A stretch of DNA of 44,820 nucleotides from Candidatus Saccharimonadota bacterium (lineage in GTDB: Bacteria > Patescibacteriota > Saccharimonadia > Saccharimonadales > EFPC-124): assembly GCA_029288315.1 (NCBI GenBank), contig JARIHL010000034.1:1-44820 (forward strand), in the 5' to 3' direction. A program made the translations under genes and the position numbers. Below, piece after piece: positions 3,558-44,634 of this stretch (the stretch's first letter is position 1; every line of letters starts with the position of its first letter). The notes under the pieces were generated by a model. The model did not search any database. It worked only from the letters and a program-made list of their open reading frames with translations, and was not told the origin of the DNA.

Positions 3558-3586
3558 ACTTTACGATAAATTACGAATATTTGCAA
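3558..3586 (-). promoter_or_regulatory. Promoter for the 3168-3500 gene
   Basis: TTGCAA (3581-3586), a 17-bp spacer and TAAAGT (3558-3563) on the minus strand. The -35 box overlaps the outermost bases of the palindromic element at 3584-3715. Confidence 0.55.
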
Positions 3587-3715
3587 GTGTATCGCGTCGC
3601 ACCTCAGAACTTCTCCTTCCAGGAAAACAGTCCGCTCGCAAAAGCTCGCTGCCTTCCTCCCGGGAAGGTCGAGTCCCTGGAAGGAGAAGTTCTGAGGTGC
3701 GACGCGATACACTTG
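3584..3715. repeat. Palindromic element, CCTTCC core, copy a
   Basis: Arms 3584-3623 and 3676-3715 are perfectly complementary over 40 bp. The 52-nt core (3624-3675, read on the minus strand) has CTCG-A-CCTTCC, loop CGGGA, GGAAGG-CAG-CGAG and a tail GCGAGCGGACTG. The core is almost identical to that at 10819-10868 although the arms are unrelated. It separates the 3168 gene from the pseudouridine synthase ending at 3735. Confidence 0.9.
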
Positions 3716-10782: not shown

Positions 10783-10904
10783 TTATCTCTAAAACAGCCT
10801 CATATAAGGTTCGCGAAGACTCGACCTTCCCGGGAGGAAGGCAGCGAGCTTTTGCGAGCGGACTGTTTCTTCGCGAACCTTATATGAGGCTGTTTTAGAG
10901 ATAA
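10783..10904. repeat. Palindromic element, CCTTCC core, copy b
   Basis: Arms 10783-10818 and 10869-10904 are perfectly complementary over 36 bp and unrelated to the arms of other copies. The 50-nt core (10819-10868) matches copy a almost base for base. It lies directly upstream of the TPM-PspA promoter and insulates it from the 11031 gene. Confidence 0.92.
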
Positions 10905-11869: not shown

Positions 11870-11972
11870 CTGCACCACCTCACTTCCTCTGCCAAACCGT
11901 GTTACCTGATCAAACAGATCAGGTAACACCGCCGGAAAGGCGGCGTTTGGCAGAGGAAGTGAGGTGGTGCAG
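11870..11972. repeat. Palindromic element, double-hairpin core, copy 2
   Basis: Outer arms 11870-11897 and 11945-11972 pair perfectly over 28 bp (ends CTGCACC/GGTGCAG). The core has a 13-bp hairpin (GTGTTACCTGATC...GATCAGGTAACAC) and a small CGCC-GGAAA-GGCG hairpin, giving a three-way junction. Flanking 9-mers GGTTTTATT and GTTTTTTCT match at 6 of 9 positions, so a target duplication is only weakly supported. Confidence 0.95.
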
Positions 11973-27364: not shown

Positions 27365-27374
27365 CCACCCATTA

Positions 27375-27479
27375 CTGCACTACCCTTACTCCCTCTATCA
27401 AACGCCGCCTTTCCGGCGGTGTTACCTGACCTGTTTGATCAGGTAACACGGTTTGATAGAGGGAGTAAGGGTAGTGCAG
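27375..27479. repeat. Palindromic element, double-hairpin core, copy 3
   Basis: Outer arms 27375-27403 and 27451-27479 pair perfectly (ends CTGCACT/AGTGCAG). The core order is reversed relative to copy 2 (GCCGCC hairpin first). It is flanked by the 9-bp repeats CACCCATTA (27366-27374) and TACCCATTA (27480-27488), matching at 8 of 9, which looks like a target-site duplication. It lies between the PEGA gene and the promoter at 27490, 10 bp from its -35 box. Confidence 0.95.
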
Positions 27480-27489
27480 TACCCATTAA

Positions 27490-29831: not shown

Positions 29832-29935
29832 TGCACCACCTCTCATTCCTCTGTCAAACCGTGTTACCTGATCAAACAGATCAGGTAACACCGCCGGGAA
29901 GGCGGCGTTTGACAGAGGAATGAGAGGTGGTCCAG
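29832..29935. repeat. Palindromic element, double-hairpin core, copy 4
   Basis: Arms pair over 25 bp (29835-29859 with 29907-29931), with two mismatches at the outer tip. The core matches copy 2 (hairpin GTGTTACCTGATC first). It sits between the tRNA-Leu terminator and the promoter at 29946, 10 bp from its -35 box. No clear direct repeat at the edges. Confidence 0.93.
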
Positions 29936-34280: not shown

Positions 34281-34384
34281 CTGCACTACCCTCACTTCCC
34301 TTCTCAAACCGTGCTCCCTGACCAAAAGGTCAGGGAGCACCACCGGAAAGGCTGCGTTTGGGAAGGGAAGTGAGGGTAGTGCAG
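34281..34384. repeat. Palindromic element, double-hairpin core, copy 5
   Basis: Arms 34281-34309 and 34356-34384 pair over 29 bp with one G-T. The core is a variant (GCTCCCTGACC-AAAA-GGTCAGGGAGC and a weakened second hairpin ACCGGAAAGGCT) shared with copy 7. The flanking 9-mers GAATTCTAA (34272-34280) and GGATTCTGA (34385-34393) match at 7 of 9, both differences being transitions. It lies between divergent operons, so it cannot be a 3' terminator. Confidence 0.95.
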
Positions 34385-35736: not shown

Positions 35737-35839
35737 CTGCACCACCTCACTTCCTCTGCCAAACGCCGCCTTTCCGGCGGTGTTACCTGATCTGTTTGAT
35801 CAGGTAACACGGTTTGGCAGAGGAAGTGAGGTGGTGCAG
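35737..35839. repeat. Palindromic element, double-hairpin core, copy 6
   Basis: Arms 35737-35764 and 35812-35839 pair perfectly over 28 bp and have the same sequence as copy 2, but the core is reversed. Flanking repeats CTACGAAAC (35728-35736) and CTACGAAAT (35840-35848) match at 8 of 9: a clear target-duplication signature. The ribosome site of the next gene begins at 35849, right after the duplicated bases. Confidence 0.96.
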
Positions 35840-37653: not shown

Positions 37654-37657
37654 TAAA

Positions 37658-37773
37658 TTAGCCAAACCAGCCTAGGCTTCCTCTTCCCAAACCGTGCTCC
37701 ATGACCAAAAGGTCAGGGAGCACCACCGGAAAGGCTGCGTTTGGGAAGAGGAAGCCTAGGCTGGTTTGGCTAA
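37658..37773. repeat. Palindromic element, double-hairpin core, copy 7
   Basis: Arms 37658-37692 and 37739-37773 are perfectly complementary over 35 bp. The core is the copy-5 variant. By alignment with copy 5 the element edge is at 37664, 10 bp from the -35 box; the extra outer bases are inverted rather than direct flanks. It separates the hydrolase promoter from the end of the glycosyltransferase gene. Confidence 0.93.
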
Positions 37774-37800
37774 TACGTCTAAGGTAATTCCATTAACGTT

Positions 37801-39005: not shown

Positions 39006-40199
39006 ATGCGAATCACCATTGCTACTGATCACTATTGGCCAACGGCCATAGGGGTAGCAACGGCAAGCCGTAATTTGGCTCGCGGCCTGGCAGCAAAAGG
39101 GCATGACGTACTTGTTATCGCGCCTTCCCAAACAGTTAAAAAGCGTAAAGAAATTGACGAAAATTATCGAATTGTACGTACTCGTTCGCTGCCTGTTCCT
39201 GGCTTAACCTTGCGGCTTTCTGTTGCTCTGCAAAACGAGATTAGAGACATCATTGAAGAACATGCATCGGATATTGTGCACGTGCAAACACCAGGCCCAA
39301 TTGGCTTACTAGCACTGCGCGTGGCAAAGAAGTTGGATATTCCGGCTATCGCTACAAACCATACAATGCCTGAAAATCTGGTTGAGAATGTTAAAATTCT
39401 GCAGCCGTTTGCTCGTCCTATTAATCATATCTTGAAAGAATATGGCATCTTGATTTATAAAGGTGTTGAGCATATTATCATGCCCACCCAGGCGGCCATT
39501 GACATGTTTAACTATGATGGGCTTGATAAAAATGTGTTGATTACACCCATCTCTAATGGTATTGACCTGAGTCATTTTAAGCCAGCAGCAGTATCGAAAG
39601 AATTCCTGGCGCAGTATAAACTCCCTACTGACAAGCCGATTATTAGTTGTGTTTGTCGCCTTGATGGCGAGAAGCATGTCCATGTGCTTATTAAAGCATT
39701 TAAGCATATTCTTGATAGAATGGATGCCCATTTACTATTAGTTGGCGATGGTAATGCGTCGAACGATCTTAAGGAGCTAGCGCATGAGCTTCAGCTTGAT
39801 CATCATATTACTTTCACGGGACGGGTAAGCGATGAAGACCTTGAGGCGTTGCAGCGGGTCGGGACGGTATTTGCCATGCCCTCTCCTGCTGAACTGCAAT
39901 GCCTTGCCTTGCTTGAGGCGATGGCTTCTGGGCAACCAGTTGTTGCTGTTAAAGCAGGTGCACTGCCTGAGCTTTGTCAAGATGGCCGCAATGGTTATCT
40001 TTGTGAAGTTGACGATGCTGATGATATGGCTCGGCAACTGCTGAAAATTCTGCAAGATAGCACCCTTTGTGCTCAAATGTCGAAAAAAAGCCTGTCGATA
40101 GCTAAAACACATGATGTAGTGCATACGATCACTCAATTTGAGGCTGTATATCGGCAAGTTATAAAAACGCATGCTCAGGTAACAGCGGCGCTTCTTTAA
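39006..40199 (+). CDS. GT4-family glycosyltransferase (diacylglycerol-glycosyltransferase-like)
   Basis: A 397-aa protein with the GT4 start RITIATDHYWPTAIGVATASRNLARGLAAKGHDVLVIAPS, HVQTPGPIGLLAL, ISNGIDLSHFKP, CRLDGEKHVHVLIKAF and the C-terminal PSPAELQCLALLEAMASGQPVVAV. The overall pattern resembles enzymes that add glucose or mannose to lipid acceptors. TATAAT ends 7 nt before the ATG, so the mRNA is leaderless. Its last codons (CTT CTT TAA) lie inside the arm of the palindromic element at 40191. Confidence 0.92.
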   Translation: MRITIATDHYWPTAIGVATASRNLARGLAAKGHDVLVIAPSQTVKKRKEIDENYRIVRTRSLPVPGLTLRLSVALQNEIRDIIEEHASDIVHVQTPGPIGLLALRVAKKLDIPAIATNHTMPENLVENVKILQPFARPINHILKEYGILIYKGVEHIIMPTQAAIDMFNYDGLDKNVLITPISNGIDLSHFKPAAVSKEFLAQYKLPTDKPIISCVCRLDGEKHVHVLIKAFKHILDRMDAHLLLVGDGNASNDLKELAHELQLDHHITFTGRVSDEDLEALQRVGTVFAMPSPAELQCLALLEAMASGQPVVAVKAGALPELCQDGRNGYLCEVDDADDMARQLLKILQDSTLCAQMSKKSLSIAKTHDVVHTITQFEAVYRQVIKTHAQVTAALL

Positions 40200-40310
40200 A
40201 CATAAGCAAGAGGAGTTGGCAGAGGCTCGATCTTTCCGGGAGGAAGGCAGCGAGCTTTTTTGCGAGCGGACTGTTCCTCTGCCAACTCCTCTTGCTTATG
40301 TTTAAAGAAG
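40191..40310. repeat. Palindromic element, CCTTCC core, copy c, overlapping two gene ends
   Basis: Arms 40191-40225 and 40276-40310 are perfectly complementary over 35 bp. The core (40226-40275) is a variant of copies a and b; a C-to-T change in its stem keeps pairing as G-U. The arms contain the final CTT CTT TAA codons of both convergent genes, so the two unrelated proteins end with identical codons. It can act as a bidirectional terminator. Confidence 0.93.
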
Positions 40311-41135
40311 AAACTGTTTAATGGCCTGCGCTGCTTGTTGTGGCGTTTCGTGATGAATAAGATGCCCAACTTTTGGCAACGTGACCAACCGAGCATTTGC
40401 TATGCGTTTTTCAAGCACATATTGACCCTTAAGTGGTGCAATATCATCAATTTCGCCAGCAATGAGAAGAGTTGGCGCAGTGATAAGCGACGCGTAGTCC
40501 AGTGCTGTGCTGGAAATTGAAGCCTGAAAAGCTTCATGCAAACTATCGCGGCTTTGGAAGGTACTAAAGTGAGTGAGGTGACTTTTGTGGATTGCCTTTC
40601 TGAGTTGTTTGTCTTTCGTTTTAGCCATAATAACACTGGTAGAAAAAGTAATAATAGGACTTGCGAGCAAAGCATGCCCTGCTCCTTCGGGCAGTCTGCG
40701 ACCAAGCCAGTAATAACTCGAAGTTAACTTACCAAGCAGTTTACGGGGGCCTTTAAGAGGTGAAGTGGCGATGGCGTTGATCAGAATCAGCTTGCTGATT
40801 GATTGTGGTTCATAAGCCGCAATATGTGCCGCAATAATTGATCCAAATGAATGCCCAAGCAACACTGGTTGATCAAGTTGGAGTGCTCTCATGAACTGTA
40901 TAATGCTAGCACTGTAGCCGGCAATATCGTGTTGGTATTCGGTCATAGGTGTCGATTCGCCGAAACCCGGTAAATCAGGAATGATAATTCTAAATTCTGG
41001 CAATTCGTCAATAATGGCCTGTAAGCCGTGATGCGTGCCACGAAAGCCATGCACCATGACAATGGTTGTTGGCTGGTGCTCATTGAAGATCCAATAAGCG
41101 ACGTCGCTCCCAAAAAGTTTGATATGGTACTGCAT
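40302..41135 (-). CDS. Alpha/beta hydrolase
   Basis: A 277-aa protein from the ATG at 41135 (MQYHIKLFGSDVAYWIF). Motifs: the oxyanion strand VMVHGFRGTHHG, nucleophile elbow GHSFGS, catalytic Asp near GEIDDIAPL and catalytic His in LPKVGHLIHHE. Substrate unknown. A TATACT box ends 7 nt before the ATG and there is no Shine-Dalgarno site, suggesting a leaderless mRNA. Its 3' end lies in the palindromic element. Confidence 0.9.
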   Translation of the reverse strand: MQYHIKLFGSDVAYWIFNEHQPTTIVMVHGFRGTHHGLQAIIDELPEFRIIIPDLPGFGESTPMTEYQHDIAGYSASIIQFMRALQLDQPVLLGHSFGSIIAAHIAAYEPQSISKLILINAIATSPLKGPRKLLGKLTSSYYWLGRRLPEGAGHALLASPIITFSTSVIMAKTKDKQLRKAIHKSHLTHFSTFQSRDSLHEAFQASISSTALDYASLITAPTLLIAGEIDDIAPLKGQYVLEKRIANARLVTLPKVGHLIHHETPQQAAQAIKQFLL

Positions 41136-41188
41136 AGACACTAGTATATATCTATCCACTAAATTCGATATAGCTTCACGGCTATCTA

Positions 41189-42707: not shown

Positions 42708-42830
42708 ACTACCATGATGGACAGTGTGCTCCGTCTCATAGAAGCTCGACCTTCCCGGGAGGAACGAAGCGAGCTATTTGCGAGCGGAGTGTTCTTCTAT
42801 GAGATGGAGCACACTGTCCATCATGGTAGT
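42708..42830. repeat. Palindromic element, CCTTCC core, copy d
   Basis: Arms 42708-42743 and 42795-42830 pair over 36 bp with a single G-T. The core (42744-42794) shows ACG for AAG changes relative to copies a and b. It starts 3 nt after the nuclease stop codon and ends upstream of the glycosidase gene. A weak TTTTCA-N17-TAACAA would place a -35 box 10 bp from a 27-bp arm. Confidence 0.9.
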
Positions 42831-43744: not shown

Positions 43745-43856
43745 CAGCCCCACCTCATGCCTCCGCTTCCAAGAAAACAGTCCGCTCGCAAAATAGCTCA
43801 CTACGTTCCTCCGGGGGAAGGTCGAATCCCTGGAAGCAGAGTATATGGTGGCGCAG
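43745..43856. repeat. Palindromic element, CCTTCC core, copy e (decayed arms)
   Basis: The core (about 43772-43829) is recognisable, but the 27-nt arms now match at only about two thirds of positions. The right end GGTGGCGCAG equals the end of double-hairpin copy 8, linking the two core types. It lies between the 43484 gene promoter and the end of hsp20. Confidence 0.85.
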
Positions 43857-44511: not shown

Positions 44512-44634
44512 CTTGTAACCTGCGCCACCCCACATTTCCTCTGCCAAACGCCGCCTTCCCGGCGGTGTCACCTGATCTGTTTGATCAGGTGACACGGTTT
44601 GGCAGAGGAAATGTGGGGTGGCGCAGGTTACAAG
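44512..44634. repeat. Palindromic element, double-hairpin core, copy 8
   Basis: Perfect 38-bp arms (44512-44549 with 44597-44634). The element edges CTGCGCC/GGCGCAG are at 44520 and 44626. The outer 8 bp (CTTGTAAC/GTTACAAG) are inverted rather than direct flanks. The core has GTGTCACCTGATC and its complement; both arms of this hairpin changed relative to copy 6 (TTA to TCA and TAA to TGA), so pairing is conserved. Confidence 0.95.

Follow-up and report, generated by a model that had tools for sequence, protein, structure and literature searches.

Palindrome at the junction of two convergent genes

The window, a stretch of 44,820 nt of DNA from a Candidatus Saccharimonadota bacterium, contains a GT4-type glycosyltransferase (GT) gene and an alpha/beta-hydrolase gene that converge on a perfect palindrome. 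The features of this junction are as follows.

39006..40199, + strand: GT4-type glycosyltransferase (PF00534, E=4.7e-39); last codons CTT CTT TAA in the left arm
40191..40225, + strand: left arm, 35 bp
40195..40200: left copy of the 6-bp sequence TTTAAA, which is self-complementary and directly repeated where the genes stop; candidate target-duplication remnant
40226..40275, - strand: family-1 core in core orientation on the - strand, 92% identity to the consensus
40276..40310, - strand: right arm, exact reverse complement of the left arm
40301..40306: right copy of the stop-codon repeat TTTAAA; candidate target-duplication remnant
40302..41159, - strand: alpha/beta-hydrolase (PF00561, E=1.1e-30); last codons CTT CTT TAA in the right arm

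The inverted arms (40191-40225 and 40276-40310) are 35 nt each, 100% complementary and separated by a 50-nt spacer. Folded as single-stranded DNA, the palindrome has an energy of -44.9 kcal/mol (z = -10.96) and 0 of 200 shuffles were equally stable; the probability that it arose by chance is negligible. The two genes are 102 nt apart, and the last 9 nt of each lie inside an arm. The GT gene ends in GCG GCG CTT CTT TAA and the hydrolase gene in CAG TTT CTT CTT TAA. Coordinates and sequence both confirm the claim of the original prediction that perfect 35-bp arms hold the CTT CTT TAA of both genes. The T-run of an intrinsic terminator is absent after the stem, and the only Rfam matches in the window are two tRNAs, with none for the palindrome.

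Element families and a related insertion sequence

The genome (1.2 Mb) was surveyed as stretches covering ~96% of it. It contains 95 cores of ~50 bp, 47 in family 1 and 48 in its sister family 2, plus a third family. The elements are ~95-137 bp long and have no coding capacity. The window alone holds about a dozen, which besides the junction copy are the following.

3584..3715, + strand: family 1, 40-bp perfect arms
10783..10904, - strand: family 1, 37-bp perfect arms
11870..11972, - strand: family 2, arms and core identical to 35737-35839
27373..27481, + strand: family 2, 31-bp perfect arms, 8/9 target duplication outside canonical ends
29835..29931, - strand: family 2, 25-bp perfect arms
34281..34384, - strand: family 2, unequal-arm subfamily, not yet equalised (TTCCC vs TTCTC)
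35737..35839, + strand: family 2, 8/9 target duplication CTACGAAA[C/T]
37657..37774, - strand: family 2, unequal-arm subfamily equalised to TTCCC, 36-bp perfect arms
42708..42830, - strand: family 1, 37-bp arms with 1 mismatch
43761..43840 (ends approximate; core 43776-43826), + strand: family 1, imperfect arms (9 differences in 28 bp)
44512..44634, + strand: family 2, intact ends, flank inverted over 8 bp (CTTGTAAC/GTTACAAG), without target duplication

The elements end in CTGCMCCACC, copies with recognisable ends start with CTG[CT][ACG]CC[AG]CC, and the canonical arm length is 32-33 bp. Target duplications of 9 bp that match at 7/9 or more positions flank 10 of the 33 copies with recognisable ends, against a null rate of 0.3% for mismatched flank pairs. 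The clearest one is at L098:8788, with GGCGAGATG on both sides (9/9). An insertion sequence (IS) at L120:1-1211 encodes a DDE transposase (PF01609, E=1.2e-15) and has the same ends as the elements (CTGC[CA]CCACCC[TC]CACTTCACCC). Since they are short, non-coding and multicopy, share their ends with this IS and are flanked by 9-bp duplications, the elements are, as judged from sequence, non-autonomous MITE-like transposons. The IS itself is probably autonomous, with ends CTGCMCCACCCYCACTTCACCC, and one of its ends also occurs near contig ends at L077:4668 and L160:141. A search of the genome for the Y1 (HUH) transposase (PF01797) of REP/RAYT systems gave no match, and the controls were positive.

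The junction copy matches the transposon ends at only 6/11 and 5/11 positions and has no recognisable 9-bp target duplication, with TTTAAA present on both sides; it is therefore assigned to family 1 by its core. Stop codons also lie inside the arms at L117:11834 (pheT), L122:2230, L135:7602 and L166:2702.

The third palindromic family has ends GGCAAGTATACCCCTACG and an A+T-rich inner hairpin. Its copies are at L110:13652-13785, L152:19741-19874, L162:16060-16192, L125:1281-1424, L138:10149-10276, L164:8428-8527 and L077:3977-4112.

Arm identity within and between copies

In each family, 47 copies have both arms within their contig, and in 33 of these the arms are near-perfect. Watson-Crick pairing within copies is 92% in family 1 and 96% in family 2, and falls to 40% and 51%, respectively, when arms are dealt randomly among copies. 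Wobble-type mismatches make up 2-4% of arm pairs. Mean divergence of arms between copies is 0.50 (family 1) and 0.39 (family 2), and family-1 arms share little information more than ~16 bp from the core. Differences between the two arms of a family-1 copy are bimodal, with 0-3 in 34 of 47 copies, 4-6 in none and at least 7 in 13.

One family-2 subfamily appears to have been equalised in both directions. Five copies have unequal inner arms (TTCCC/TTCTC), and three of these have canonical ends and target duplications of 7-9/9. Because such copies keep their ends and duplications, unequal arms are most simply the starting state. In other copies of the subfamily both arms read TTCCC (window 37657, L117:7497 and L115:3168) or TTCTC (L072:3463). 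The copies at L138:10283 and L122:2230 have perfect outer arms and mismatched inner arms, which is the reverse of what selection for a loop-proximal stem would be expected to produce.

In two pairs of copies (window 11870/35737 and L089:3751/L157:14368), the arms are the same over their whole length although the sites differ, which indicates that an element carries its arms along when it moves and does not acquire new ones with every insertion. Some perfect-arm copies retain intact ends (window 11870/35737 and L120:1464). Good target duplications also accompany unequal arms, as at L098:8788 (9/9, 3 differences) and L148 (7/9, 6 differences). The idea that every insertion captures fresh flank as its arms was rejected on these grounds, namely the arm-sharing pairs at different sites and the well-duplicated copies that include unequal arms.

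Among the 18 copies with both ends intact, two have an inverted flank directly outside the element, of 6 and 8 bp, and no target duplication. These are L095:7783 (TTCTAA/TTAGAA) and window 44512. The number expected among these 18 strict copies is 0.004 (P=9e-6). A further 8-bp inverted flank is present at L126:772, where the ends match less well. The simplest reading is that rewriting overshot the element and overwrote one copy of the target duplication. Alternatively, these elements may have inserted into pre-existing palindromes without duplication.

Proposed mechanism

The junction palindrome would be an old, probably immobile MITE copy that landed between the convergent GT and hydrolase genes. 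On insertion, the elements are proposed to be quasipalindromes that end in CTGCMCCACC and duplicate 9 bp of the target, and the DDE IS with identical ends probably mobilises them. After insertion, the DNA could form a hairpin during replication, and a polymerase template switch between the arms would rewrite one arm as the complement of the other; the pattern is observed, and the switch is its proposed cause. With repeated switching, the two arms would stay equal even as their sequence drifts or gives way to another, and the transposon ends would be erased. An occasional overshoot by a few bases would turn the flank into an inverted repeat. The equalised arms of the junction copy extend into both genes, and so both end in CTT CTT TAA. 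The shared codons could come from the hydrolase end or from an overlap of the two stops that was present at the target beforehand. Judging from the genome-wide sequence pattern, a probability of about 0.72 is given to template-switch rewriting of quasipalindromes in MITE copies.

Against this account, arms diverge several-fold more than cores, which differ between copies by 0.13 (family 1) and 0.17 (family 2). Equalisation alone is therefore insufficient; the core must also be constrained, or the arms replaced wholesale. The same conservation of cores weakens a model of pure neutral drift with conversion. Also against it, some perfect-arm copies still have intact ends, and the junction copy belongs to the family by its core and not by its ends or a 9-bp duplication. 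Selection for the hairpin could be a contributor. The searches turned up no close relative that carries this insertion, and rewriting is therefore not observed between two states of one locus.

The original prediction had also proposed that flanking DNA becomes inverted-duplicated around the core, for example by template switching. The locus-specific near-perfect arms, the equalisation in two directions and the two inverted flanks among 18 copies give this general proposal genome-wide support. Copying of flank at insertion itself is doubtful, since arms shared between sites indicate travel with the element. A bolder version, in which hairpin-templated rewriting is so active in this lineage that dead transposon copies are palindrome seeds whose arms are replaced wholesale by inverted neighbouring DNA, grow outward and convert gene ends into copies of the neighbour's end, is speculative and considered rather unlikely.

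Origin of the shared gene ends

The gene pair was compared with 29 orthologous GT-hydrolase loci in relatives. The pair is convergent in 28 of the 29, and 26 of these 28 overlap at the stops by 4-44 nt. The element is absent between the two genes at all 29 loci. In the closest relative of the pair, L172 (G191), the hydrolase gene lies in tandem behind the GT gene and is not convergent with it.

The hydrolase here ends in FLL*, at the commonest (modal) length of the ortholog ends (FIR*, FID*, FLR*, FTL*), and I, L or T usually follows the F in ortholog C-termini. The expectation that an AIxxFL-type end is normal for such hydrolases was right in kind, as many orthologs end in AI..F[ILT]x*. The GT here ends in ...THAQVTAALL*, 3 aa beyond the L172 ortholog (...KHQAVLA*; 55% identity). 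The tails of GT orthologs differ by more than 10 aa; 2 of the 29 (L193 and L195) end in ...RLL*. Judged by these C-termini, the hydrolase appears to have its native end; for the GT they give no firm ground to claim a change. When the orthologs were checked for shared C-termini, none had LL* in both genes. As a second test of a native end, the left gene at L135:7602 was dropped because its homologs are too distant (25-29%).

Two explanations of the shared codons stand about even. In the first, nothing was overwritten: the stops already overlapped at a naturally self-complementary CTTCTTTAAAGAAG, and the insertion duplicated TTTAAA and left both native ends intact. TTTAAA is directly repeated to the left and right of the element, and stop overlap in nearly all convergent relatives makes such an insertion a live alternative. 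A sister locus points the same way. At L133:11356-11470, a family-1 element lies between an ABC ATPase gene and a permease gene and is flanked on both sides by TTCATGAA, in which the ATPase gene stops and the permease gene starts. This repeat is most simply explained as a target duplication. In 4 of 11 relatives the two genes overlap by ATGA at this junction, so both gene ends there are most simply native. However, TTTAAA is only 6 bp while the target duplication of the family is 9 bp, and a duplication does not account for the additional CTTC/GAAG symmetry (4 bp, 1 in 256). In addition, judged by length the element itself (canonical arms of 32-33 bp) fills the 35-bp arm, so TTTAAA would fall inside the element. 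The explanation is thus tentative, at somewhat under even odds; if it is true, the element-free site would read CTTCTTTAAAGAAG.

In the second explanation, which the original prediction favoured, only the hydrolase kept its native end, and template switching copied that end in inverted form onto the GT gene. The modal length of the hydrolase end and the 3 extra aa of the GT relative to L172 agree with this, and inverted flank copying occurs elsewhere in the genome. On the other hand, GT tails are variable and two orthologs end in LL*, a duplicated TTTAAA explains the stops about equally well, and no close relative offers an empty site. The orthologs lean toward a native hydrolase end, and the reading as a whole is plausible but falls short of being the probable one. 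If it is true, the element-free site would hold the hydrolase end ...CTTCTTTAA, with the GT stop elsewhere.

Other explanations of the perfect arms

Template-switch rewriting remains the preferred account of the arms in general. Selection could instead preserve perfect arms for the sake of a hairpin in RNA, for example a bidirectional terminator, as the element folds into a very stable hairpin and the junction copy lies between convergent genes. This is improbable, because copies are not enriched at convergent sites (11 convergent, 17 divergent and 38 same-direction), no T-run follows the junction stem, and wobble-type mismatches are so few among the arm pairs. Even less likely are arms born perfect by a snap-back intermediate that copies one arm from the other during transposition, for although many copies have perfect arms and two pairs have identical arms at different sites, the best-duplicated copies include unequal arms (L098:8788 and L148), the transposase is of the ordinary DDE type and the Y1 search was negative.

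Comparison with known systems

The elements resemble MITEs of DDE insertion sequences in their length, their lack of genes, their many copies, their IS-shared ends and their 9-bp duplications. They differ from them in that most arms are perfect, locus-specific palindromes and many copies have lost the transposon ends. Like the palindromic elements of Rickettsia, they are dispersed in a small bacterial genome. The Rickettsia elements sit inside reading frames, while those described here sit between genes. Arm identity of the Rickettsia elements is lost with time, as cited in a paper on other palindromes (PMC6649704), whereas it is kept here.

Template switching makes quasipalindromes perfect in E. 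coli reporters (PMC7202029), and homogenisation of quasipalindrome arms is seen in yeast phylogenies (PMC8604942). As in those studies, imperfect inverted repeats would here become perfect in either direction. The process is already known; the present case suggests it in tens of dispersed MITE copies of one genome, where arm sequences have diverged and rewriting seems to have run on into flanks and gene ends. Compensatory multi-base stem changes of RNA hairpins have also been explained by DNA template switching (PMC8794818). That work concerned RNA genes, whereas the copies here are dead transposons with no sign of an RNA role. In nematomorph mitochondria, repeat identity of a similar all-or-none kind has been taken as an argument for active repeat conversion (PMC6649704). 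The coding palindromes of Nematomorpha are likewise all-or-none perfect inverted repeats that reach coding sequence, but they are mitochondrial and have no mobile core, and here only gene ends are touched.

If the preferred account is correct, one small genome contains the same quasipalindrome in tens of independent replicates of differing age, from which the direction and reach of rewriting could be measured. Dead transposons may then rewrite gene ends, and perfect stem covariation need not imply selection for RNA.

Distribution and additional observations

The cores were absent from 40 relatives, from IMG/VR and from 84,980 species genomes, a set that may omit near relatives of the source genome. 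A 312-kb sample of a sister genus contained no comparable palindrome. A literature search on similar elements whose loop is conserved and whose stem varies, or on MITEs of Patescibacteria, returned nothing relevant.

At L088:8833-8923, the last 25 bp of a tRNA-Ser(GCT) gene are repeated in inverted orientation past a terminator-like hairpin. This locus was set aside as an example of flank copying because its second arm could be part of another tRNA-Ser-like sequence, convergent with the first and not called by ARAGORN. In the alignment of family-2 cores, the inner hairpin (GTGTTACC..GGTAACAC) also varies symmetrically among copies, including those at window 11870-11972 and 35737-35839.
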